From the IMG/VR virus record IMGVR_UViG_3300023084_000123, positions 1 to 24,625 of that record: 24,625 nt of DNA; one strand, written 5' to 3'. Shown piece after piece: positions 5,984 to 17,944 of the stretch (position 1 is its first letter; each line of letters opens with the position of its first letter). The position numbers and the translations under genes are program-made. Below the pieces are notes generated by a model. That model was not told where the DNA came from, did no database searches, and was given only the letters and a program-made list of their open reading frames with translations. The DNA is from a virus.

Positions 5984-6265
5984 ATGGCGACTAAGACGTC
6001 AGTTGTATTGCTTGATGAAAAAAGAAAACCGGCTGTTAGTAAGTCTGCTGGTTACATGGAGCGAGAGTCTACTGCGTGTTTCAAGTTAGGTTCTATTTTA
6101 TTCGTACCTACTTACGTTCAATCGAAGATGGGCATTGTTGAATACGTAGGGCCAAGTGCTTCTACTGAAAACAGCAGACGCTTTACTGAGCTTGAGCTTA
6201 GACGTATGGGTGCTCATCGAGTATCAGAGTTTCTATGGAAGAGGGCTTGGATAGATGGAAGATAA
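5984..6265 (+). CDS. Hypothetical protein, 93 aa, first gene after the strong promoter
   Basis: A 93-residue soluble protein of no family that I recognise. The first ~25 residues are basic (MATKTSVVLLDEKRKPAVSK). A beta-rich middle follows (ACFKLGSILFVPTYVQSKMGIVEYVGPS), then a charged helix (RRFTELELRRMG) and an aromatic end (FLWKRAWIDGR). No cysteine pair, membrane segment or catalytic motif stands out. It is translated from an ideal AAGGAGG site about 34 nt downstream of the -10 box, and its end overlaps the next gene by 11 bp. First position after a strong host-type promoter is where phages often put host-takeover or regulatory proteins, but that is only positional inference. Confidence 0.8.
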   Translation: MATKTSVVLLDEKRKPAVSKSAGYMERESTACFKLGSILFVPTYVQSKMGIVEYVGPSASTENSRRFTELELRRMGAHRVSEFLWKRAWIDGR

Positions 6266-6653
6266 CATCGGAGCAGAGCAGTACGTAGCCGCATACAAGA
6301 AAATACGTGAGGCTATAAAAGAGAAAGAGAGTGCTTTTAAACAAGAGATAGCTGACCTGAAGGAGAAGCAGCAGATCCTTAGCACCAAGCTACTTGAGTT
6401 TTGTAATGAGCACAATCTGGATAGCATCAAAACCAGCGAAGGTACTGTATCTCGTAGGGTCATCACCAAGTTCTGGTGTAGTGACTGGGATCAGATGCAC
6501 ACCTTTATTAAAGAGAACGACGCTATGCACCTACTAGAAGCTAGGTTACATCAGGCTAATCTTAAGCAGTTCTTACAAGATAACCCTGACAAGATGCCTA
6601 TTGGGTTGCAGAGCAATAGTGAATATGCAGTATCAGTCCGTAAACGAAGTTAA
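6255..6653 (+). CDS. Hypothetical coiled-coil protein, 132 aa
   Basis: A 132-residue protein. Residues about 8-50 are strongly charged and helical with heptad spacing (KIREAIKEKESAFKQEIADL), predicting a coiled coil. A compact domain follows with LDSIKTSEGTVSRRVIT, aromatic residues (FWCSDWDQM) and an EARLHQANLKQFL helix, and the end is basic (SVRKRS). The layout, helical N-terminus then a strand-rich 'SIKTSEGTVS' segment, is reminiscent of siphophage Gp157-type proteins and of small proteins often placed beside phage single-strand binding or recombination genes, but I cannot assign a family. ATG 6255 overlaps the previous gene, and the putative ssDNA-binding gene starts 15 bp after its stop. 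Possibly an accessory to that protein (inference). Confidence 0.8.
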   Translation: MEDNIGAEQYVAAYKKIREAIKEKESAFKQEIADLKEKQQILSTKLLEFCNEHNLDSIKTSEGTVSRRVITKFWCSDWDQMHTFIKENDAMHLLEARLHQANLKQFLQDNPDKMPIGLQSNSEYAVSVRKRS

Positions 6654-6668
6654 TCTCAAGGAGAACAA

Positions 6669-7565
6669 ATGGGAAACGTAGCAATCTTTAAAGATAAAAC
6701 CGCAGTTGCTAACACAAGCAAGCGAGAGCTTAGTGAACTGTCCAAGTCGCTAATGAAGAAATCAAGTGTCACTAATCGACGCTTGCAAGTACAACCAAAC
6801 GGCACATTCAAACGGGTCATCAACGGAGAGCAAATAGGTAACGCCGTGCGTGGTGAAGTCAATGTGATTATCGTTCACATGCTAGAAAATGTGTCACGTA
6901 TCTATTACAAAGAAAAGTTTGACCCTAAGAAAGAAGCCACATTACCTAACTGTTGGTCAAACATTGGTGACAAACCAGAGGCAGCGGCATCAGATAAACA
7001 AAGTGCTACATGCCTTACATGTCCACAGAACGTTAAGGGTTCTGGTGAGGGTGGTAGTGGTAGAGCATGTAGATTCCAACGTCGTGTATCTGTGATTCTT
7101 GAAGGCGATGAAACTGGTGCTGTGTACCAACTTAATATCCCTGCTAAGTCTCTATTCGGCAAGGGTGTTGATAACGTACATCCGTTCGAGTCATACGTGA
7201 AATACCTACTCGCTAACAACGAGAGTATTGATAATGTGATTACTAACGTAGCTTTTGATCCTAACGCAGACACGATGGAACTTGTGTTTACTCCTATGCG
7301 GCATGCTACTGATGGTGAGTACGAGTTAGTTAGGCAGGCACAAGCATCACCAGAAGCTAAAATGTACACCGCCATTACTGTGGCACAAGCAGATGGAGTT
7401 ACAAAGAAACCTAAAGAAGAGCCAAAGGTACAGCGTTCTGATGAGCCAGACGACGAGGATGAAGTAATTGAAGAACCTCAAGTCCGTGCAAAGAAGCCAG
7501 CTGAAGAAGCACCGAAGCCAAAGAAAGATGCCGCAGAAATCGTAGACGAGTGGTTGACTGAGTAA
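6669..7565 (+). CDS. Putative phage ssDNA-binding protein with four-Cys site
   Basis: A 298-residue protein. The N-terminus carries the peptide KRELSELSKSLM (residues 18-29), identical to one in the primase-helicase. The body has a strand-rich core (TFKRVINGEQIG, EVNVIIVHMLENVSRIYY). Four cysteines follow, C95-x19-C115-x2-C118-x15-C134, within CLTCPQNVKGSGEGGSG and RACRFQRRVSV, probably a zinc site as in T4 gp32-like proteins. AVYQLNIPAKSLFG and a YVKYLLANNE helix come next. From about residue 240 the chain is a disordered, alternately acidic and basic tail ending DEWLTE, as in many SSBs. Position next to the primase-helicase and in one unit with it fits an SSB role. The function is inferred, not proven; other possibilities are a replisome scaffold or recombination mediator. 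RBS AAGGAGA precedes ATG 6669. Confidence 0.6.
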   Translation: MGNVAIFKDKTAVANTSKRELSELSKSLMKKSSVTNRRLQVQPNGTFKRVINGEQIGNAVRGEVNVIIVHMLENVSRIYYKEKFDPKKEATLPNCWSNIGDKPEAAASDKQSATCLTCPQNVKGSGEGGSGRACRFQRRVSVILEGDETGAVYQLNIPAKSLFGKGVDNVHPFESYVKYLLANNESIDNVITNVAFDPNADTMELVFTPMRHATDGEYELVRQAQASPEAKMYTAITVAQADGVTKKPKEEPKVQRSDEPDDEDEVIEEPQVRAKKPAEEAPKPKKDAAEIVDEWLTE

Positions 7566-7795
7566 TGGGCTACGGTTACAGCATACGGTTGATACAACTC
7601 AACAAAAGTGCCGACCGAAAGCTGTTAGGTGTTCGCTTGGGGAAACTGTGTATTAAGCATGACTTACCAGTTTCCTCGGTGGCTTCTAAATTGGGTGTGA
7701 GTAGACAGACAGTTTATAACTGGTTCATTGGTGCTACTCAACCCAAACCGGCTTTTGCTTCGCGTGTAGAAAATTTAATTAACCGCCTTAAATAA
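7565..7795 (+). CDS. Small helix-turn-helix DNA-binding protein
   Basis: A 76-residue protein with one XRE/Cro-like HTH in the second half: DLPVSSVASKLGVSRQTVYN (about residues 33-52), where VASKLGVSRQTVYNW is a textbook turn and recognition helix, then GATQPKPAFASRVENLINRL. The N-terminal ~30 residues form another helix. Its ATG overlaps the preceding stop (TAATG), and it lies 11 bp before the primase-helicase gene. Embedded in a replication operon, it may be an autoregulator of that unit (the inverted repeat over the -35 at 5922-5936 is an obvious test site) or an origin-binding protein. Family call is good; target is inference. Confidence 0.85.
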   Translation: MGYGYSIRLIQLNKSADRKLLGVRLGKLCIKHDLPVSSVASKLGVSRQTVYNWFIGATQPKPAFASRVENLINRLK

Positions 7796-7806
7796 GAGAG
7801 CGACTT

Positions 7807-10629
7807 ATGGATCTACTTAATACAGTACAGCCGTCCACTGGGTGGTTTTGCGTATTAGGTATAAAAGAAGACAAATCACCACAACAACATCTGGTACAGA
7901 CAAGAGAGGAAGTAGATGAAATCGTTAAGGATCTTGTTGCTGATAATTGGAATGTATTTTTTGCAGTTGCCAAGTTTGCAACAGGGGAAAACCGTAGAAA
8001 AGAAAATGTCCAGTTACTTAAGTCTTTTTGGGTAGACATAGATTGCGGTGAATCTAAAGCTGTAGTTAATCCTGATACCGGCAAACCCGCTGGTTATATA
8101 GATCAAGCTACCGGACTGACCGCACTTAAAGAGTTCTGCGAGAAGATAGGATTACCTGACCCAATCGTAGTTAATTCTGGTAGAGGCATACACGCATACT
8201 GGCCTTTGCTTGAGGAGTTAACACGGCAGGAATGGGAACCTGTAGCACGTAGGATTCGGGATTTATGTGTAACTCATAACTTTTATGCCGATGGCGCAGT
8301 TACAGCTGACGCGGCTAGGATTCTTAGGGTACCTAACACTTATAACTTTAAAGACGATACTCCTAAAGAAGTAACCATATTGGAGGAAGCAGAACCCACA
8401 TCTATTGTGGATATGCGCGAGTTATTAGGTGTAGAGGAAGGGCTAGAAGAAGCGCCAAAACGAGAGTTGTCTGAACTAAGCAAGTCTCTGATGGCTAATT
8501 ATTCTTCTTCCTTCACTAAGATCATGGTGCGTAAGGATAGCTGTCAACAGCTTATAAGTTGTTATAAAGATCGTGCGACCCTTTCGGAGCCTAGATGGTT
8601 TAACGCATTGGCGATAGCTAAGTTTTGTAGTGATAAAGACAAAGCTATTCACAAGCTATCAAAAGACCATCCAGACTACGACCCTGCTACTACAGAGGAA
8701 AAGATTGAGCACATCAAAGGCCCACATGGTTGCGTGGAGTTTGAGAAGTCAAACCCAGGTGGTTGTGAAGGCTGCCCACACAAGGGGCTTATTACATCGC
8801 CAATACAGCTAGGCAAACAAATCCTAGAAGCGAACGAGGAAGACAATACCGTAGTAGTCGCCAGTGAGGAGGAAGGGGAAGAAGATGAAGTCCATGTTAT
8901 TCCTAAATATCCAGACCCTTACTTCAGGGGCAAAAACGGGGGAGTATACCTGAACCCCTTGGATGAAGACGAAGAGCCCATATGTATATACGAGCATGAC
9001 TTATATGTAGTTAAACGTATGCGCGATCCAGATCGTGGCGACATGGTGGTTATCAAGTTACACCTGCCTGCGGATGGTGTGCGTCAGTTTGCGATTGAAG
9101 CTGCGTTGATGTCGAAGCTATCGGACTTAGCGTCTGAGTTAGCTAGGCATGGGGTTATAACTTTGGGAAGAAAGAAATCAGAACTAGTAGCCATGTATAT
9201 AGCTGGTATGACTAGGCACTTACAATATACAAAGAAAGCGGAGGTTATGAGAACACAGTTTGGATGGGCTGATAATGACAGCAAGTTTATTTTGGGCGAT
9301 AGAGAGATTACAGCTAATGGTATTTACCATAGCCCTCCATCACACGTAACAGATCAACTCGCAAGTATGATACATAAAGCGGGTTCGTTTGATAGGTGGA
9401 AAGAGATATGGCATCTGTACGGTAGAGAAGGTATGGAGTCTAAAGCGTTTGCCGCGCTAAGTGCGTTCGGTTCGCCCCTTTACAAATTTACTGGGCATAG
9501 TGGGGGCATGCTTAGTTTGGTAAACCCAGAGTCTGGTACAGGTAAAACAACAGTCTTACATATGATTAACAGCGTGATCGGAGACCCTAAAGCACTATGT
9601 GGGCAACCAAAGGACACACTCAACGCGCTGTATATGAAGATGGGTATATTGAATAATCTTTGCTATACACAAGACGAAATTACCAATATGCCAGCTAAGA
9701 CTCTATCGGATTTTGTATATGGTCTTTCGCAGGGTAAAGGTAAGGATCGTCTTACTAGTCATGCGGAGTTAAGGCGCAATATATCTATTTGGAATCAGAT
9801 AGGTGTTACTACATCAAACTCTCCTGCAATAGATAAGTTAGGAGCGTTAAAGGCTTCTCCTGATGGCGAACTCATGCGGATTATAGAATACACAGTACAC
9901 CCAGATACCGTTATAGATGTAGAGGTAGGTAAGCAGGGGTTTAGTATAGATTTGATGCGCAACTATGGTCATGCAGGGGAAGTGTATTTCCAGTACCTAG
10001 TTAGTAACCTAGAAGAAGTTAAAGAACTACTAACTCACGTACAGAGAAAGTTTGATAAAGAACTTAAGTTAACCCAGCGGGAAAGATTCTGGTCTGCAAT
10101 GGCAGCAGCTAATATAGCTGGTGGAATAATAGCTAAGAACGTAGGGCTGATTGAATGGGACTTGGCGCGTCTGTATAAATGGACTTGCGATATGATTCAA
10201 GACTTACGGCAGGAAGTTAAGCCCCCTACAACTAATGGCTTTGCGATACTTGGTGACTATTTAAATACTTATATCAACAATACATTAGTCTGTGATGATG
10301 GGCTTGACCAACGTAGCAATATGAATGCGTTGCCTAGAATGCTACCTAAGAATGAACTACTCATACGTATGGAGCCAGATACAAACAAAGTTTTTGTTAC
10401 TACTAAACACTTCAAAAAATACTGTGCGGATAACCAAATATCGTATAAAGAAACTATAAACTTACTAAAAAACGAAGGTTACTTTATAGGTAACATGAAC
10501 AAACGCCTGTCGAAAGGCATGAAGATAACCACGCCAGCAGTTAGTTGTTTGTGTTTTGACATTAGCGATAGCGAGATAGCACAAAACATTATAGATAGCG
10601 AAGATGATAATCGAGAAGGTGCAGTATGA
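7807..10629 (+). CDS. Primase-polymerase (AEP) fused to SF3/D5-like helicase
   Basis: A 940-residue replication protein. Residues ~1-210 form an archaeo-eukaryotic-type primase: SFWVDIDCG with D77 and D79, NSGRGIHAYWPL with H129 (sxH motif), and DAARILRVPNTYNF with R171/R174. A linker follows that contains KRELSELSKSLM (218-229), the same peptide as in the putative ssDNA-binding protein. Residues ~305-325 hold C..F....GGCEGCPHK, a likely zinc element of primase C-terminal regions. An acidic linker leads to the ATPase: Walker A ESGTGKTT (K580), Walker B YTQDE (D623-E624), then GLSQGKGKDRLTSHAELR and VTTSNSPAI (sensor-like Asn), as in D5/DUF927-type SF3 helicases. It should synthesise primers and unwind DNA at the phage fork with the family A polymerase. 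All key residues look intact. Confidence 0.92.
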   Translation: MDLLNTVQPSTGWFCVLGIKEDKSPQQHLVQTREEVDEIVKDLVADNWNVFFAVAKFATGENRRKENVQLLKSFWVDIDCGESKAVVNPDTGKPAGYIDQATGLTALKEFCEKIGLPDPIVVNSGRGIHAYWPLLEELTRQEWEPVARRIRDLCVTHNFYADGAVTADAARILRVPNTYNFKDDTPKEVTILEEAEPTSIVDMRELLGVEEGLEEAPKRELSELSKSLMANYSSSFTKIMVRKDSCQQLISCYKDRATLSEPRWFNALAIAKFCSDKDKAIHKLSKDHPDYDPATTEEKIEHIKGPHGCVEFEKSNPGGCEGCPHKGLITSPIQLGKQILEANEEDNTVVVASEEEGEEDEVHVIPKYPDPYFRGKNGGVYLNPLDEDEEPICIYEHDLYVVKRMRDPDRGDMVVIKLHLPADGVRQFAIEAALMSKLSDLASELARHGVITLGRKKSELVAMYIAGMTRHLQYTKKAEVMRTQFGWADNDSKFILGDREITANGIYHSPPSHVTDQLASMIHKAGSFDRWKEIWHLYGREGMESKAFAALSAFGSPLYKFTGHSGGMLSLVNPESGTGKTTVLHMINSVIGDPKALCGQPKDTLNALYMKMGILNNLCYTQDEITNMPAKTLSDFVYGLSQGKGKDRLTSHAELRRNISIWNQIGVTTSNSPAIDKLGALKASPDGELMRIIEYTVHPDTVIDVEVGKQGFSIDLMRNYGHAGEVYFQYLVSNLEEVKELLTHVQRKFDKELKLTQRERFWSAMAAANIAGGIIAKNVGLIEWDLARLYKWTCDMIQDLRQEVKPPTTNGFAILGDYLNTYINNTLVCDDGLDQRSNMNALPRMLPKNELLIRMEPDTNKVFVTTKHFKKYCADNQISYKETINLLKNEGYFIGNMNKRLSKGMKITTPAVSCLCFDISDSEIAQNIIDSEDDNREGAV

Positions 10630-10885: not shown

Positions 10886-10917
10886 ACCCCCTAGTGAAAG
10901 CTAGGGGGTTTTCTTTT
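10886..10917 (+). terminator. Strong intrinsic terminator of the replication arm
   Basis: ACCCCCTAG (10886-10894) pairs perfectly with CTAGGGGGT (10901-10909), giving a 9-bp stem. The loop is TGAAAG, where a T-G wobble would close a GAAA tetraloop. TTTTCTTTT follows directly. Read on the minus strand the hairpin is not followed by a T-run, so it mainly stops plus-strand transcripts. The stop codon of the leftward giant gene (10916-10918) lies at the end of the T-tract. Confidence 0.93.
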
Positions 10918-13900
10918 ATTCCTTGTAGCTTTTGCCAGCTTTCTTAGCGCGACGCTGTATCATTTCTGCTTCTTCCTGACTAACTCCACTGCGTCGTTTT
11001 GGATCATTTGCTTCATCTATAAGCTCTTTATTTATATCCTCTATAGTTTCGTACACAGGTAGTTTAGCCGTTGGATACTTATCGTTGTGTACGTTTATAG
11101 CAGCCAGTATTTTAGCTCTTTCAGCCATGATTGTTTCTTCACTGGTTCCAGGGCGAGCTATTCTTAGATGCTTCAGCTCTCTCATATTATCTTTAAGTTG
11201 TCTTCTTAAGTTAGTTCTAGATGCTCTAGCTTCTCCAAGTACACGGGTCATACGAAGTTCAGCATCTCTACGCTCGGAAATTTCTAATGGTTCTCTACCT
11301 ATAACGCGCATAAGCACTTCTTTGGTAGTCACATCTTCTGGAGGTCTAACTAAATTTTTAGTGTCTTTGTCTACCTCACCAACTTTAGCAAGGCGGTATG
11401 CTTCTGACGCGTCTTTAATATTAGGCAATGTATTTTTGAGCCCCTCTGCCATATTTCCCAAAGCCCTATCAAAATTACCTCTTACTAAGTCTGTACCTAC
11501 CTTTTCTACGAACGTACTAAAGTCTAATAATCTATCGTAACCAACACCTAGGAAAGAATCCGCTAACGATCCAAGTCTACCTCGCATGTCTAACGAAGCG
11601 GTGGGAGATCCATACAGACTAGGAGCTATCATGCTATCCATATTCAACATAGCTGCAAAGTTATAGCCAGTCGCCGTATCAATAACGCCATTAGTAAGCA
11701 TTAGTCGTAATTTTTCATTACCTACATTTTCAGGTAGCCACACTTCTTTCATCCACAGGGTAAAGTCATCTCTGTATATTGGGTCTCGTGTCTTTTCTGT
11801 GGGATCATCTTCGTCCATTTCGTTCAGTATCGCATTTATGATACTGGTAACGAGTGTGTAACCCATAACCCCCGTAGTGCCAGCAGTCAAAGCAGTTAAC
11901 GCAGAAAAGCTCATCAACTTTGTAAACGCTGCTTTTCTTTCTGCGGCTGGTAAATGTCTGATACCGCCAAGAGACATGGCTAAATTTCTAACCACGAACG
12001 CTATCGCTTGTAATCTAAAACTTTGAAGTCTAGAAGCGTTTCTAGCTAAGAACCCACCGACACCGCCAGCAGTTACAAGTTTATTAAACGCTTTATTAAA
12101 CCGGCTGTAGTCAAAAGCGATCTCTTTTGTATCTAGTTTAGCCGCTTCAAATATCTCTATTACTTGTTCTTCATTTAGCTCTATAGGTTTGCCATCTCTT
12201 TTAAGAGTTTTAACTTTAGCTTTATAGGCTTCTTCGACAGCAGCTAGATAAACAATCTCTCTAACGTGCCTCTCTGAATATCTAAATGGGAACGAAATTA
12301 ATTTACCTAACCTCCGCATACCGTTCTTAATAGGCGTAGTAGGCTGACCAATAGAACTCTCTGTAGGCGCGTAACCAGCAGACAAAAACTGCTCTAGGTA
12401 GTTAGTGCCAAACAGCCCCCTATTATTTGCATACTCATACGCTGCTTTTAAGAAAGGATTATTTTTTACTCTAGCTAAATTGCCTAGCGATCCAACCGCA
12501 GTATCTAACGATGTTTCGTTTATGTTATCAGCTGTAATGCTACCAGTAGCAATCTGTTGTGCGCCCTTACCTAGTGCTAAATAAGTACCTAGCGATTTTA
12601 AAGCGCCAAGGCCATACTTCTGAACTAAAACAGCCGGAGCAAAGGTAGCTAGTACGTTATAGTTTTGAATAGCTGTATCGACACCTAGCAATGAGGTATA
12701 GAAAATAGATTGTCCACTTAAATTTTCTAGCTTGCGTAAGAGTTCACTCTGTGGCTCTGGAGAAAACTCAGATTTAGTTCGTTGCTCTAGCTCGTCAATT
12801 ATTTTGTTAATTCGTACCTGATATGGTTGCCCTTTTACAGCATCTCTAGCTTGACTCAATACTAGCTCAGCATCTCGTTTCCTTCTTAATCTAGGCAACT
12901 GTGCAGAAGCAGCGCCCATGTAAAAACTAAATGCTCTAGCTTGATCGTAGCTATAACCAGGTGTTGCTTTTCGTTTAGCCAGTCGTGTGCGTAAGTCTCT
13001 ATCAGGCAACGTGGTCAAGTAAATATTTAGGATCTGATCCTTAATCTGCTCAACAACGTCAATAGTGTCTGTACTACCTAGTTTCTTAGTCTTTAAGTCT
13101 TCTAAGCTAGTGTATAAAGTACCAAGTAGATTGTCTGTATTCTCGTAAGTGTCACGCAGTTCTCTTCTATTGTTACCTATAGATATATTTGCTTCGTCAG
13201 GAGTTAAGCCTTGTGCTTGCATGTCTCTTTCAACCTGCATCCTAAACGCATCTCGCTCGGCTTCTTTTTCAAACGTCCACAAACCTTTATCTGGTCCGTC
13301 TGTTACTTTTATCCAGTAATCTCCAAATCTTAACAAAGGAAAATACACACCTTCGTCTCGAATCTGCTGGTACATCTTTTTAATCTTTGCCTCTACCTCT
13401 GACAATTCTTTTTCAGATATACCTAATTTTTTGATATTGCTAAGTTGTATCTCTTCGTTTCTGTTAAGCATGTCGGCATATACGTCACGTACCTCTTTAT
13501 ATATCTTGTGACCTTCAGCTTCTGCTCGTGTATCTGGTGAACCGGCAATTTGTTTGGTCCGTTTCATTTTGCCCAGTAGTTCCCATCTGGAATACACCGA
13601 CCGCATGTCTTTTGTTCTGCCGTCAATAGTAGACTGTATATCAGCTTTCTCAGCTTCAGTTAGGTTCTTGTCTGTTAAATCTTTTCGTAGTGCGACTAAA
13701 GCGGGGTCTTTTTGTATCGCCTCGACAATCGACTTATATTCTGACGGGTCAAACCTAATAACCGTAGAATCAGTCATTACTTCTTGTAGCAATCTACCAC
13801 CTACTGGGCTACCAAGAATAAACTCAGACAACTTATCGTATGTCTTTTGCCCAAGCTCAAGTATCTCTTGCCGTTCAAAGTTTAAACCGTCAATTTGCTT

Positions 13901-16900
13901 ATCAAGCCCGTCTGCTAGAGTGTTAAGACTTTTAATATTAGATTTTCTTAAAACTTCAAAAAGCGTAAACGTATCAGAAGACAGCAGTGCAGCGCCTAAT
14001 GTTTTATCGCCAAGCACGCTACCTAAATTCTTACCAGCAAACTCAGCGCCATCTTTACCTACATTATTATCTACGGATATGAACCCTTGATATACCTCTG
14101 TAAACGTTTGTGATGTTTCTGCATTCTCTAGTTTACGTTTTAATCTGTTTAGCAGGATTTCTGTATTTCTCCTGTTCACCGACCCCATTTTTTCGCCAGT
14201 CTCCATACCCTCAAGCGGAACTGCGGTACGTTCATAGAGCTCAGCGTCACTTAGAATATATTCTAAACCTCGCACTAAACCGTTATCTCGGTTGTAACCT
14301 GGGCCAAGAATATCTAAGATTGCGTTAACAAACTCAGATAACCACCTCTTAGCTTTACCCACCCAGCCTTTATCTTTTTCACTAGCCTTAACTAATAAGT
14401 CAGACCCATTAACCGCCCACCATTCACTAGGGTCAGTCTGACTATAAAACTTTAAAGACTCGGCATTAGAATCAAATATTGGGATTAGGTCACCTGGTTG
14501 CCTTGCCAAGTTTGACAGTTTTTCTACTTCTTTAATTAAAAGATCTGGGTTGTTACTAAGGTCTGGGTATTTTTGTATACTTTTTTGTGCAGCTTCTATA
14601 ATAGCTGGGCTTATATTTCGTAGTTCTACAGCAGAAGCTACAACCGTTCTAGCACGTAAATCACCCTCGTGCGCCAAGATAATAAGCTCATAAACCGCTC
14701 TTTTACCCTGCACCTTTCGCAAGTTTAAGTCTTGGGTTATGGCACGTTTTAGTTCACCAGCTGTATACACCCCTTGTTTTGCGTCATTAATATAACCATC
14801 AATAATTTTATTTTCTTCTGCTGTGAGGTCTGCGATTGTTGTATCTATTTCTTTGCGCCATTCATCGCGTATCGCTTCTCTTATATCATTAGGTAGAAAT
14901 TGCTCAGCACGGTGTAGTAGTTCATGGATACCGGCGCTAACGCTGTCAGTCCTATTTGTAAATAGGTATATAGTGCGCATAAAACCGCCAACATCAGGAT
15001 CTTTTGCACTACTAAAGAAAGCACCTTGAGCACCTGTTTTTGTCGCGCTTAGAGCATCTTTTTTGCTATCTATTTCTAACGCGAGGTTGTCTGCCAACCT
15101 TGGATTTTTTTCTAGTACCCATAGTAAAGCTCTATACGCTTTGTTGGCTGTTGTATTTGAGTTGGTGTCTTCTATGGCTTTAAGTAGTTGCTTCCTGATC
15201 TTAGAGTAATTTTTCCTACTTTCTCCACGAGGAATAACGTTTGTAGCTACTACTCTACGTCCAGGCTTACCATCAATCTGTTGCGTATCCATAACTACGT
15301 TGCCGTAGATGTTTCTAGATATGGTGCCTAGACGTTGTAAAAACTGTGCCTGACTAACTTGGGACGGTGCAACACTTTCTGCTTGTAGCTCTTTCTTAGC
15401 TGCGGCGATTAGTTTCTTAGCTGCTGCAACAGCATCGTTTCTCGTTGTGCCGACTACTGCTAGATTTTCGTAAGTAACATCTAAGAGTGGACCTTGGTCT
15501 TCTAGCACCCATAATGGCGCATCTCTCTCACCCGCTGGAGTTCGCACATCCCTAACAGCAACTTCAAGTCCGGTTTCGTTGTCTGTAATTACAGTACGCT
15601 GATTTGACGAGTCAATATCCATACCAGGACGACCCACATTTTCATTGCGCACAGTAAAGCCTGTTTTCTTGGGCGCTGGTTTTGCTTCTACTTCTGGCTC
15701 TTTTGCAGGAACTTCTTCAGGTTTTGTAGCTAAGTTACGCAACCTTTCTTTAACGCGATCAAACGAGGTATTTATATTTTCTTTTACCTCAGGGGTAACT
15801 CTTTTTGCCATGCGAGCAAACGTGTCATCTTTTAGTTGCTCTAATTGCTCAGTATATGTTTTACGTGGCGTAACCTCTGTTTCAACTTCTTCAGTTACTT
15901 CTACGTCGGAATCACGTGTGATATTTTTCTCTACGGTTTTAGTGTCAATCTTTCCTAAATCTCTAGCGACATCACCTAAACCAACTTGTTTTATATTTTT
16001 ATACCTATCCGTTTTAGTCTTTACAGGCTCATCTGTGTTCTTTAACTTATCTCTAGCTTCTTCGACTACTATTTTTTCTTCTGGAGTAGTTAAATCTAAA
16101 GTCTTTTTAGGCGCAGCTTTTTTAGCTTTTGGTTTTTTCGTTGGTTTTGCAACGGGTTCTGGCACGCGGACAGCGGCTTCGTCGTCAAACTCAGATACCT
16201 CTAAATCTAACTCTTGTTGTCTAAGAGGCGACGTATCTTCTGGTTCTTCAGCAACCTGTGTGTCATCCAACCAAATAATACGTTCCTGTTTTTGTTTCGC
16301 GCTAAGTTCTGGTCTATCTAAATCTAGCTCTAATTGATCTCCAGTAGGGGATCTCCTAACACCTTCAGAAACATCTAACCTACGCTGCATATCTTTAACA
16401 GCTTGTGGCACTCTACTAGGTGTTGCCTCATCTAATGCGTCAGAAAGTTGAGCTTCTTCTTGGTCTTTCGCGGCTGTTTGTTCTACGTTTTCTTGTGCTT
16501 CAAACTCTACTTTTTGTGTGGCGTCCGATTCTACGCCTTGAGCTTTGTCAATAACGTATTGGTAAACTAAAGCATCTATTTCCTCTCTAGATGCACCTTT
16601 TGCAAGTGAGTTGGCTACTGCATTTTTAAGTGGTTCTAAGTCTATACCCGCAGTTATTGTAGGATCTATGTCTTTTACCGCAGCGCTGATAATGTTCTCC
16701 GCCTGCCTAGCTCTAGACAAACTATTGCGTGTGGCTACTATATCTACCGGAGCTGTAATACCTTCTCCTAATGCCTCTAAAGCAAGCTCACCCATTTGGG
16801 CTTCTTCGCCTACCGCTTCCGCCGCTTGTTTCGCACCTAATGCGCCCCCTGTTCCTTGTATACCAAATTGAGTAGCTACATCGGCAGTAGCAGCAACGGA

Positions 16901-17944
16901 AGGAGATTTGATAAATTTAGAGAATGGGGAAAACCCTACAAACGTCCCAGCAATAGCATTGGCAGGAACCTCGGCAACGGTTTTATCCACCGCATACTCT
17001 CTTGCTTTTTCCACGTCTCCACCAAATTTTTTAAGTCCTTCCATATAGTTTGGACCTAAAGCCCCAAATACTACAGATGTAGACGCTAGTGAAGAACCCC
17101 CTGTAGCGGTACCAATAATTCTACTTATAGCTGGACGTAGAAATTTAGCAGCTGTTTTTGCAGCAAGAAACCCTGCACCACCACCAGCGGGTAAAGCAGC
17201 TAGTACCGCAGGTAACTGCTCTCCAAAAAAGTTGATAGCTGCGGTTGGGTTGCGTAGAAAAAAGCCAAGCATTTCTTTAGCCGCCGCAGTAAAAGATCCA
17301 CCTTGTGCATCCGATGCTTGGGTAGCAAGCTGTATAGCTTCAGCAATACGTGGGTCAGACGCCATAGCGTCGTATTCTTCTTGTGCTTGTTTTAAGTTAA
17401 GTGCGCTCTGCTCGGTACCTTGAATCATGTCTGCCAAGGTGTACCAAGTAGTCATTAACCGCTGTGCACCCTTTTGCATCGAGCTTCGGAAGGTTACTTC
17501 ATCATCTCTTAGGGGCATACCCAGTTCAAAGTTATTTCTCTCAAACTGGTCGAGCAAGCTCTCTTCGCCTGATCTGAGTTTGTCGTTTTCTTCTTTTACA
17601 AAATTCCAAAACCTATCAGGTTGTGTTTCTTCAGGCCCTTCTTTTTGTAGCGCATCGGTAAGAAGCTCGGCATCAGGGAACTGACTTATAAAACCTTCTG
17701 CCGCTATACGGTCAGGAAACTCGTAAGTTTCACCATTTAACCTAACATCTGTTGCTAACGTAGGTGATTCTTTTTCGGTAGGGGTAATATTTGTAGTTGG
17801 AGTGGGTAAGTCTAGTGGTTCTTCAACTACAGCCTGTTGTGGGGTTTGCAAGGTGCCCCCATACTCAAGCATAAAACCTCTAGCATTTTCTTCTGAGGGA
17901 AAAGCATACTGGTTTCCGTTTGGATGCTGAACGACATACTCCAT
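10916..17944 (-). CDS. Giant internal virion/ejection protein with zincin motif
   Basis: A 2342-residue protein, last of the virion cassette. Two ~27-residue repeats open it (NG..Y.FP....A.GF, residues 9-34 and 70-96). Residues ~225-290 are Gly/Ala-rich and hydrophobic (PAVLAALPAGGGAGFLAAKT). Residues ~430-760 are charged and low complexity, presumably disordered. HELLH at 1007-1011 (GIHELLHRAEQFLP) is a zincin metalloprotease motif. A long helical region follows, with hydrophobic stretches near 1750-1790 and 2010-2040 (SALTALTAGTTGVMGYTLVT) and a Lys/Arg-rich C-terminus. This is the style of phage 'large polyvalent' proteins. Length, position after gp14/gp15-like genes and membrane-active segments suggest the counterpart of T7 gp16, ejected into the cell envelope (inference); I see no lytic transglycosylase motif. 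ATG 17944 is preceded by AAAGAAG, 12 bp after the upstream gene. Confidence 0.87.
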   Translation of the reverse strand: MEYVVQHPNGNQYAFPSEENARGFMLEYGGTLQTPQQAVVEEPLDLPTPTTNITPTEKESPTLATDVRLNGETYEFPDRIAAEGFISQFPDAELLTDALQKEGPEETQPDRFWNFVKEENDKLRSGEESLLDQFERNNFELGMPLRDDEVTFRSSMQKGAQRLMTTWYTLADMIQGTEQSALNLKQAQEEYDAMASDPRIAEAIQLATQASDAQGGSFTAAAKEMLGFFLRNPTAAINFFGEQLPAVLAALPAGGGAGFLAAKTAAKFLRPAISRIIGTATGGSSLASTSVVFGALGPNYMEGLKKFGGDVEKAREYAVDKTVAEVPANAIAGTFVGFSPFSKFIKSPSVAATADVATQFGIQGTGGALGAKQAAEAVGEEAQMGELALEALGEGITAPVDIVATRNSLSRARQAENIISAAVKDIDPTITAGIDLEPLKNAVANSLAKGASREEIDALVYQYVIDKAQGVESDATQKVEFEAQENVEQTAAKDQEEAQLSDALDEATPSRVPQAVKDMQRRLDVSEGVRRSPTGDQLELDLDRPELSAKQKQERIIWLDDTQVAEEPEDTSPLRQQELDLEVSEFDDEAAVRVPEPVAKPTKKPKAKKAAPKKTLDLTTPEEKIVVEEARDKLKNTDEPVKTKTDRYKNIKQVGLGDVARDLGKIDTKTVEKNITRDSDVEVTEEVETEVTPRKTYTEQLEQLKDDTFARMAKRVTPEVKENINTSFDRVKERLRNLATKPEEVPAKEPEVEAKPAPKKTGFTVRNENVGRPGMDIDSSNQRTVITDNETGLEVAVRDVRTPAGERDAPLWVLEDQGPLLDVTYENLAVVGTTRNDAVAAAKKLIAAAKKELQAESVAPSQVSQAQFLQRLGTISRNIYGNVVMDTQQIDGKPGRRVVATNVIPRGESRKNYSKIRKQLLKAIEDTNSNTTANKAYRALLWVLEKNPRLADNLALEIDSKKDALSATKTGAQGAFFSSAKDPDVGGFMRTIYLFTNRTDSVSAGIHELLHRAEQFLPNDIREAIRDEWRKEIDTTIADLTAEENKIIDGYINDAKQGVYTAGELKRAITQDLNLRKVQGKRAVYELIILAHEGDLRARTVVASAVELRNISPAIIEAAQKSIQKYPDLSNNPDLLIKEVEKLSNLARQPGDLIPIFDSNAESLKFYSQTDPSEWWAVNGSDLLVKASEKDKGWVGKAKRWLSEFVNAILDILGPGYNRDNGLVRGLEYILSDAELYERTAVPLEGMETGEKMGSVNRRNTEILLNRLKRKLENAETSQTFTEVYQGFISVDNNVGKDGAEFAGKNLGSVLGDKTLGAALLSSDTFTLFEVLRKSNIKSLNTLADGLDKQIDGLNFERQEILELGQKTYDKLSEFILGSPVGGRLLQEVMTDSTVIRFDPSEYKSIVEAIQKDPALVALRKDLTDKNLTEAEKADIQSTIDGRTKDMRSVYSRWELLGKMKRTKQIAGSPDTRAEAEGHKIYKEVRDVYADMLNRNEEIQLSNIKKLGISEKELSEVEAKIKKMYQQIRDEGVYFPLLRFGDYWIKVTDGPDKGLWTFEKEAERDAFRMQVERDMQAQGLTPDEANISIGNNRRELRDTYENTDNLLGTLYTSLEDLKTKKLGSTDTIDVVEQIKDQILNIYLTTLPDRDLRTRLAKRKATPGYSYDQARAFSFYMGAASAQLPRLRRKRDAELVLSQARDAVKGQPYQVRINKIIDELEQRTKSEFSPEPQSELLRKLENLSGQSIFYTSLLGVDTAIQNYNVLATFAPAVLVQKYGLGALKSLGTYLALGKGAQQIATGSITADNINETSLDTAVGSLGNLARVKNNPFLKAAYEYANNRGLFGTNYLEQFLSAGYAPTESSIGQPTTPIKNGMRRLGKLISFPFRYSERHVREIVYLAAVEEAYKAKVKTLKRDGKPIELNEEQVIEIFEAAKLDTKEIAFDYSRFNKAFNKLVTAGGVGGFLARNASRLQSFRLQAIAFVVRNLAMSLGGIRHLPAAERKAAFTKLMSFSALTALTAGTTGVMGYTLVTSIINAILNEMDEDDPTEKTRDPIYRDDFTLWMKEVWLPENVGNEKLRLMLTNGVIDTATGYNFAAMLNMDSMIAPSLYGSPTASLDMRGRLGSLADSFLGVGYDRLLDFSTFVEKVGTDLVRGNFDRALGNMAEGLKNTLPNIKDASEAYRLAKVGEVDKDTKNLVRPPEDVTTKEVLMRVIGREPLEISERRDAELRMTRVLGEARASRTNLRRQLKDNMRELKHLRIARPGTSEETIMAERAKILAAINVHNDKYPTAKLPVYETIEDINKELIDEANDPKRRSGVSQEEAEMIQRRAKKAGKSYKE
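14912..14926 (-). other. HELLH zinc-metallopeptidase signature codons
   Basis: The minus strand reads CAT GAA CTA CTA CAC, coding His-Glu-Leu-Leu-His at residues 1007-1011 of the giant virion protein. HExxH is the zinc-binding helix of zincins. The third ligand cannot be assigned by eye. Confidence 0.7.
17657..17920 (-). repeat. Two N-terminal protein repeats of the giant gene
   Basis: Residues 9-34 and 70-96 share the pattern N-G-x-x-Y-x-F-P-x4-A-x-G-F, ending in L-x-T or L-L-T. They are separated by a Pro/Thr-rich linker. They are related at protein level only and look like a small strand-helix module repeated twice. Confidence 0.65.

Follow-up and report, generated by a model that had tools for sequence, protein, structure and literature searches.

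In phage T4, the N-terminal domain of gp32 docks on the core of an adjacent gp32 molecule (PMC12893549). In phage T7, the sites bound by the acidic C-terminal tail of gp4 are basic patches on gp5 (PMC12593628), and the BRC repeats of BRCA2 imitate FxxA, the oligomerization motif of RAD51 (PMC12606624). The DNA analyzed in this work (hereafter, the window) comprises positions 1 to 24,625 of the IMG/VR virus record IMGVR_UViG_3300023084_000123. It contains a phage replication cassette coding for PolA (gene truncated at the left end of the window), a RecB-like nuclease, an SNF2-type helicase, a Gam-like protein (132 amino acids), a putative single-stranded DNA-binding protein (SSB), a helix-turn-helix (HTH) protein (76 amino acids) and a primase-helicase (940 amino acids). 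The putative SSB and the primase-helicase carry the same peptide, which is conserved among related phages, co-evolves in register in both proteins, is selected at the protein level and is restricted to these two proteins. This is probably a single docking peptide, displayed twice, whose copies fit the same receptor site. The two genes and the two copies are located as follows:

6669 to 7565, plus strand: putative SSB, 298 amino acids, with an N-terminal arm, an OB-like core with conserved Cys and an acidic tail that closes with a short helix (open reading frame, model, weak fold matches)
6720 to 6755, plus strand: motif copy 1, KRELSELSKSLM, SSB residues 18-29, in the N-terminal arm (sequence; conservation and co-change)
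7807 to 10629, plus strand: primase-helicase, 940 amino acids, with an AEP-type PrimPol, a hinge, a Cys-containing helical domain and DUF927 (Pfam, Foldseek, AlphaFold)
8458 to 8493, plus strand: motif copy 2, KRELSELSKSLM, primase-helicase residues 218-229, in the hinge (sequence; conservation and co-change)

The N-terminal arm of T4 gp32 is, by analogy, the nearest precedent. Like gp32, with its N-terminal (B) domain and LAST motif, the putative SSB has a short basic arm and an acidic C-terminal tail, the arm preceding a core that may be an OB fold; however, no sequence homology is shown between the two, and the fold match is weak (Z 4.6). In addition, the second copy of the LAST residues is located in the core of gp32 itself, where it contacts single-stranded DNA, whereas here the second copy is in another protein, is longer and co-evolves in register. 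The tail of T7 gp2.5 uses the same polymerase (gp5) as that of gp4, and in this the T7 replisome resembles the proposed situation, in which the SSB and primase-helicase of one replisome would reach a partner via flexible peptides. The T7 tails are C-terminal and acidic and are not known as in-register co-evolving sequences; the peptides described here lie internally or near an N-terminus, start with basic residues and are specific in sequence. The BRC repeats and RAD51 provide a case of one protein imitating the peptide through which a DNA-binding filament protein associates with itself, the logic proposed below for the hinge; they are other proteins, of another fold and kingdom, and the analogy is one of logic only.

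The first-pass annotation of the window had reported an identical 12-residue peptide in both proteins, and KRELSELSKSLM was indeed found at 6720-6755 and 8458-8493. Its codon reading also proved exact: the copies differ in 7 of 12 codons, Ser is encoded by AGY in one copy and TCN in the other at two positions, and 26 of 36 bases agree. Chance was ruled out as the cause of the shared 12-mer: with a per-site match probability of 0.059, the number of identical pairs expected from composition is 5e-10, and the longest word common to both proteins in 5000 shuffles was of 7 residues.

Scans of viral contigs revealed 199 loci containing both genes, 148 of them distinct once duplicates were removed: 117 were window-like, 26 resembled Rhizobium phage RHph_TM3_14A and 5 resembled Pseudomonas phage Rollin. 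Both copies are kept in nearly all of the 117 window-like phages, in which the motif reads R-x-x-[ST]-x-[LF]-[AGS]-[KQ]-x-[LMF], position 4 being Ser or Thr in every motif call. Within this group the peptide drifts in step (SSB / primase-helicase): GRRMTALGQQI / RRGLSALGQAI in locus L063, ERKTALGELLKD / KRVSPLAELLKD in L078, ERELSEFAKA / EREISEFAKA in L055 and NSELSELAKS / KAEMSELGKA in L068. The relatives of the Rhizobium phage contain a different peptide, of the ELSAGI type, that again matches within each phage (TDELSAGIQSS / TSELSAGIDIS in L086; PNSAFAALNPEAESLADGIGS / PNAAFAALSPQADQLGTGVAA in L177), and Rollin and most of its relatives contain a third type, [LIV]P-x-HL (SALPAHLQ / GAVPEHLR in L154; AGASNVNMIAATGTGGGQ / AGAADVNIIAATGAGLAQ in L156). 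A further contig (L293), found after the statistics had been completed, has LPPS in both copies (ALPPSKLGQQI / RLPPSPLAQMI). In the Rhizobium phage, the best match in the whole record is the hinge of its own primase-helicase; in Rollin and Effie the best whole-record matches are other proteins, and the case for Rollin therefore rests on position and on its relatives. The homologue search thus showed both copies kept and co-varying in register, with neither loss of one copy nor independent divergence. The primase-helicase of the Rhizobium phage (L086 8138-11221; MN988472.1 gene EVB41_076), which is annotated as 'putative integrase protein', is a homologue of the window primase-helicase.

Co-evolution of the copies was analyzed by comparing own pairs with pairs from different phages, using clusters at 80% identity. 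Similarity within the same phage exceeded that between phages in the two large clades (40.9 v 32.9 and 31.0 v 25.0; 0 of 10000 shuffles in each case), and in the four Rollin-like clusters the values were 38.8 for own pairs and 31.4 for others, a difference that was not significant. Since shuffling ignores kinship, two kinship-controlled tests were added. In the first, the match fell when partners were exchanged between sister phages, taken in phylogenetically independent pairs (Wilcoxon p 0.008 with 36 pairs and 0.04 with 12 pairs), while sign tests alone gave p 0.06 in the main clade (18 v 9, with 9 ties) and 0.38. Sister pairs at distances below about 0.2 are uninformative; at distances of at least 0.4, a cut chosen after seeing the data, 14 of the 17 non-tied pairs were positive. 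The second test counted changes on the same branch of a tree inferred from the remaining sequence of the two proteins, with 2000 null draws. Among the window-like phages, there were 41 same-branch changes at in-register positions (28 expected, p 0.002), and 18 of the same-branch changes were to the same residue (4.0 expected; 0 of 2000 null draws as high in the 117 phages). A single profile was used to call the motif in the SSB and the primase-helicase for this test, which may bias the calls towards similar windows, and the SSB call of L203 was shifted.

The same material bears on whether the present identity could have arisen by recent duplication or gene conversion. The two genes are neighbours, and weaker similarity extends to both sides of the motif (upstream, IFK in the SSB and GVK in the hinge; downstream, RRI in the SSB and F-x-K-I in the hinge). 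However, identical residues shared a codon at the rate given by codon usage (249 of 654, 45 of 121 and 11 of 36, against 230, 45.6 and 15.3 expected under synonymous randomisation), and 46 Ser positions switch between AGY and TCN codons in the two copies. As codon identity is no greater than usage predicts, selection acts on the protein; conversion would leave identical codons, and the codon test rules it out together with recent duplication, an origin of the present identity that is thus barely credible. The earlier proposal that the peptide is held at the protein level rather than recently copied as DNA is borne out by this test. The flanking similarity could mean that the docking segment extends beyond the motif, or that a duplication took place long ago; an ancient duplication may have been the origin of the motif, and it cannot explain its present upkeep.

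Both copies had been placed outside the folded domains in the first-pass annotation, and single-chain AlphaFold models (alignments of 91 and 92 sequences) agreed with this placement. The modelled or matched parts of the two proteins are these:

6735 to 6764, plus strand: predicted short helix of copy 1, of modest confidence, SSB residues 23-32 (AlphaFold)
6777 to 7388, plus strand: SSB folded core, residues 37-240 (AlphaFold; weak OB-fold matches)
7404 to 7562, plus strand: SSB C-terminal tail, acidic and mostly disordered, with a terminal helix at 288-297 (sequence, AlphaFold)
7807 to 8436, plus strand: AEP/PrimPol domain, residues 1-210 (Foldseek to cyanophage S-2L PrimPol 6zp9_A, E 7.5e-9)
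8473 to 8496, plus strand: predicted short helix of copy 2, of modest confidence, primase-helicase residues 223-230 (AlphaFold)
8500 to 8841, plus strand: helical domain with conserved Cys, a probable zinc site, residues 232-345 (AlphaFold)
8956 to 9774, plus strand: DUF927 helicase/ATPase domain, residues 384-656 (Pfam PF06048, E 7.7e-28)

The SSB copy is located in a low-confidence arm ahead of the core, which starts at residue 37 (mean predicted local distance difference test score, pLDDT, of 68 for residues 21-30), and the other copy in the hinge between the PrimPol and the Cys-containing domains (mean pLDDT 58 for residues 211-220 and 71 for 221-230, with neighbours above 90). Since pLDDT ranges from 54 to 77 around the SSB copy and from 58 to 71 around the hinge copy, the conserved peptide lies in low-confidence segments; entropy dips at the R, S/T, L and K of the motif, in variable surroundings. 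Neither AlphaFold nor Pfam supported a location of both copies inside ordinary folded domains. At the SSB N-terminus, I-F-[KT] (residues 6-8, window 6684-6692) is almost invariant and more conserved than the motif (entropy 0.09 at I6 and 0.0 at F7).

In the primase-helicase, both an AEP fold (closest solved structure, S-2L PrimPol 6zp9_A) and a DUF927 domain are present. The SSB had no Pfam match, and its PHROG matches were only to families of unknown function. Foldseek found no match to its model at E≤0.001, and VIA-align gave weak OB-fold matches of its beta-rich core (phiC31 gp3, Z 8.3; BRCA2 OB, Z 5.5; gp32, Z 4.6). Since there was no Pfam match and the OB-fold matches were weak, identification of the 6669-7565 product as an SSB is a reasoned guess from the model. 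The best solved-structure match of its core, near noise level, is phiC31 gp3, a recombination directionality factor (9teh_I, Z 8.3, 151 residues); if real, this match would place that factor in a phage SSB-like fold. A closer link to phiC31 gp3 was rejected: the match is of fold only (Z 8.3), with no sequence match and no twin peptide with the phiC31 primase.

When ten phage sequences, near-complete or large, were scored for the motif, the SSB and the primase-helicase alone stood out (39-58); no third carrier was found in them, the next best protein scoring at most 27 and being a different one each time. The clients of the motif are therefore the SSB and the primase-helicase. We infer that the peptide binds a protein, and that both copies share one site, for which they could compete. 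According to the mechanism we propose, the docking peptide would be displayed once on the flexible N-terminal arm of the SSB and once on the hinge between the PrimPol and the zinc/helicase parts of the primase-helicase. Both copies would fit the same receptor surface, so that a change in this surface would force the same change in both.

The putative receptor would be the core of a neighbouring SSB molecule. The SSB arm would dock on it to form cooperative SSB arrays, as with the T4 gp32 N-domain, and the primase-helicase hinge would imitate this arm, thereby plugging the primase-helicase onto the SSB-coated strand. In Xp15-type phages, the SSB arm is retained in an [IL]P-x-[HY]L form, and the primase is of another family and shows no matching peptide. 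Since they keep the arm though the primase differs, the SSB arm probably serves a purpose beyond its match with this primase-helicase. Because of these phages, and because the gp32 N-domain docks on the adjacent core, the SSB core was ranked first among the candidate receptors, as a tentative choice made by analogy. The fuller version, in which the hinge is a molecular imitation of a self-docking SSB arm and the pair has stayed in step through repeated peptide changes in at least three lineages, is possible and no firmer than that choice. In Thermoanaerobacterium phage THSA-485A (L292 4315-5052 and 5387-7879), the same SSB family is paired with a DUF927 protein having a CHC2 zinc finger instead of PrimPol; the best segment of this primase-helicase scored 32 against the SSB arm and the next 28, so that the twin was not significant.

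Several observations weigh against the proposed docking mechanism. The match between copies is weak or absent in some relatives (L057, L148, L175, L179 and L157). Columns co-changing with the motif were not found in the SSB core, SNF2, the Gam-like protein, the HTH protein, the nuclease or PolA, and the C-terminal core helices of the SSB (residues 215-245), where a gp32-like site would lie, showed no excess (mean z -0.22). Apart from the motif's own positions, the scan singled out no more than a weak excess at residues 251-345 of the primase-helicase (11-13% of columns at p<0.05); the primase-helicase itself is an improbable receptor. With nine informative target branches these scans had low power, and PolA could be tested in 16 phages only; the absence of receptor columns is weak negative evidence.

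The same scans bear on a receptor in another phage protein acting as a hub, such as PolA, SNF2 or the Gam-like protein. Such a hub would account for two copies without other carriers and has a precedent in T7 gp4-gp5 (PMC12593628); PolA, SNF2, the RecB-like nuclease and the Gam-like genes accompany the SSB/primase-helicase pair in the Rhizobium phage and in each of the nine large window-like contigs that were searched. However, no column block in PolA, SNF2, the nuclease or the Gam-like protein tracks the motif changes, which leaves a hub doubtful, and PolA taken singly unlikely. Docking of both peptides on a host replication protein, both changing at once when a lineage switches host, would explain concerted change without co-varying phage columns and wholesale peptide replacement between lineages. 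Against this, no host is known for the window-like phages, the single genome match being a short contig of a metagenome-assembled genome binned as Actinomycetota and itself doubtful; a host receptor ranks below PolA in likelihood. Of the first-pass proposal of a docking motif for a common partner, the docking idea thus stands, and the choice of partner is not supported so far: no PolA column block followed the motif in the 16 testable phages, and SSB-core docking as in T4 gp32 fits equally well as, or better than, a polymerase or host partner. Homotypic pairing, arm to arm and arm to hinge, would require matching directly and yield in-register identical changes with no receptor. It is highly improbable: a helix of ~10 residues has at most one hydrophobic stripe and is not long enough to pair stably unless avidity helps, and the Rhizobium-type ELSAGI peptides are unlike a zipper.

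The remaining genes of the window include the following, between the SSB and primase-helicase genes:

7565 to 7795, plus strand: HTH protein, 76 amino acids, found in 116 of the 117 window-like phages but lacking in the Rhizobium phage

The 132-amino-acid Gam-like protein (window 6255-6653) matches PHROG 13900 'minor head protein' and, weakly, Mu Gam. It is encoded beside the SSB gene in 116 of the 117 window-like phages, and Xp15, KPP25, Rollin-like and Rhizobium phages have it within their replication cassettes. The 'minor head' designation seems mistaken, and a DNA-end or replication role is likelier. Beyond the cassette, a 2342-amino-acid open reading frame on the minus strand (10916-17944) is followed by frames of 656, 333 and 429 amino acids, the products of all four being probably virion proteins.

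No description of such a motif for these proteins was found in the open-access literature, subscription papers being outside the search. The co-evolving peptide pair is real and unusually clear, and belongs to a general kind, shared docking motifs, that is already known. Flexible peptides holding replisomes together are usually found singly at the bench; here, the putative docking peptide is visible from sequence alone, since it recurs in two proteins whose evolution runs in step. The pair yields a defined 10-residue motif, more than 100 natural matched pairs and mismatched controls from sister phages, and scanning for own-pair versus sister-swapped matches could reveal such docking peptides in other phages. 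It also offers a test of SSB/primase-helicase coupling in a large environmental phage group whose replication proteins are mostly annotated as 'hypothetical'.

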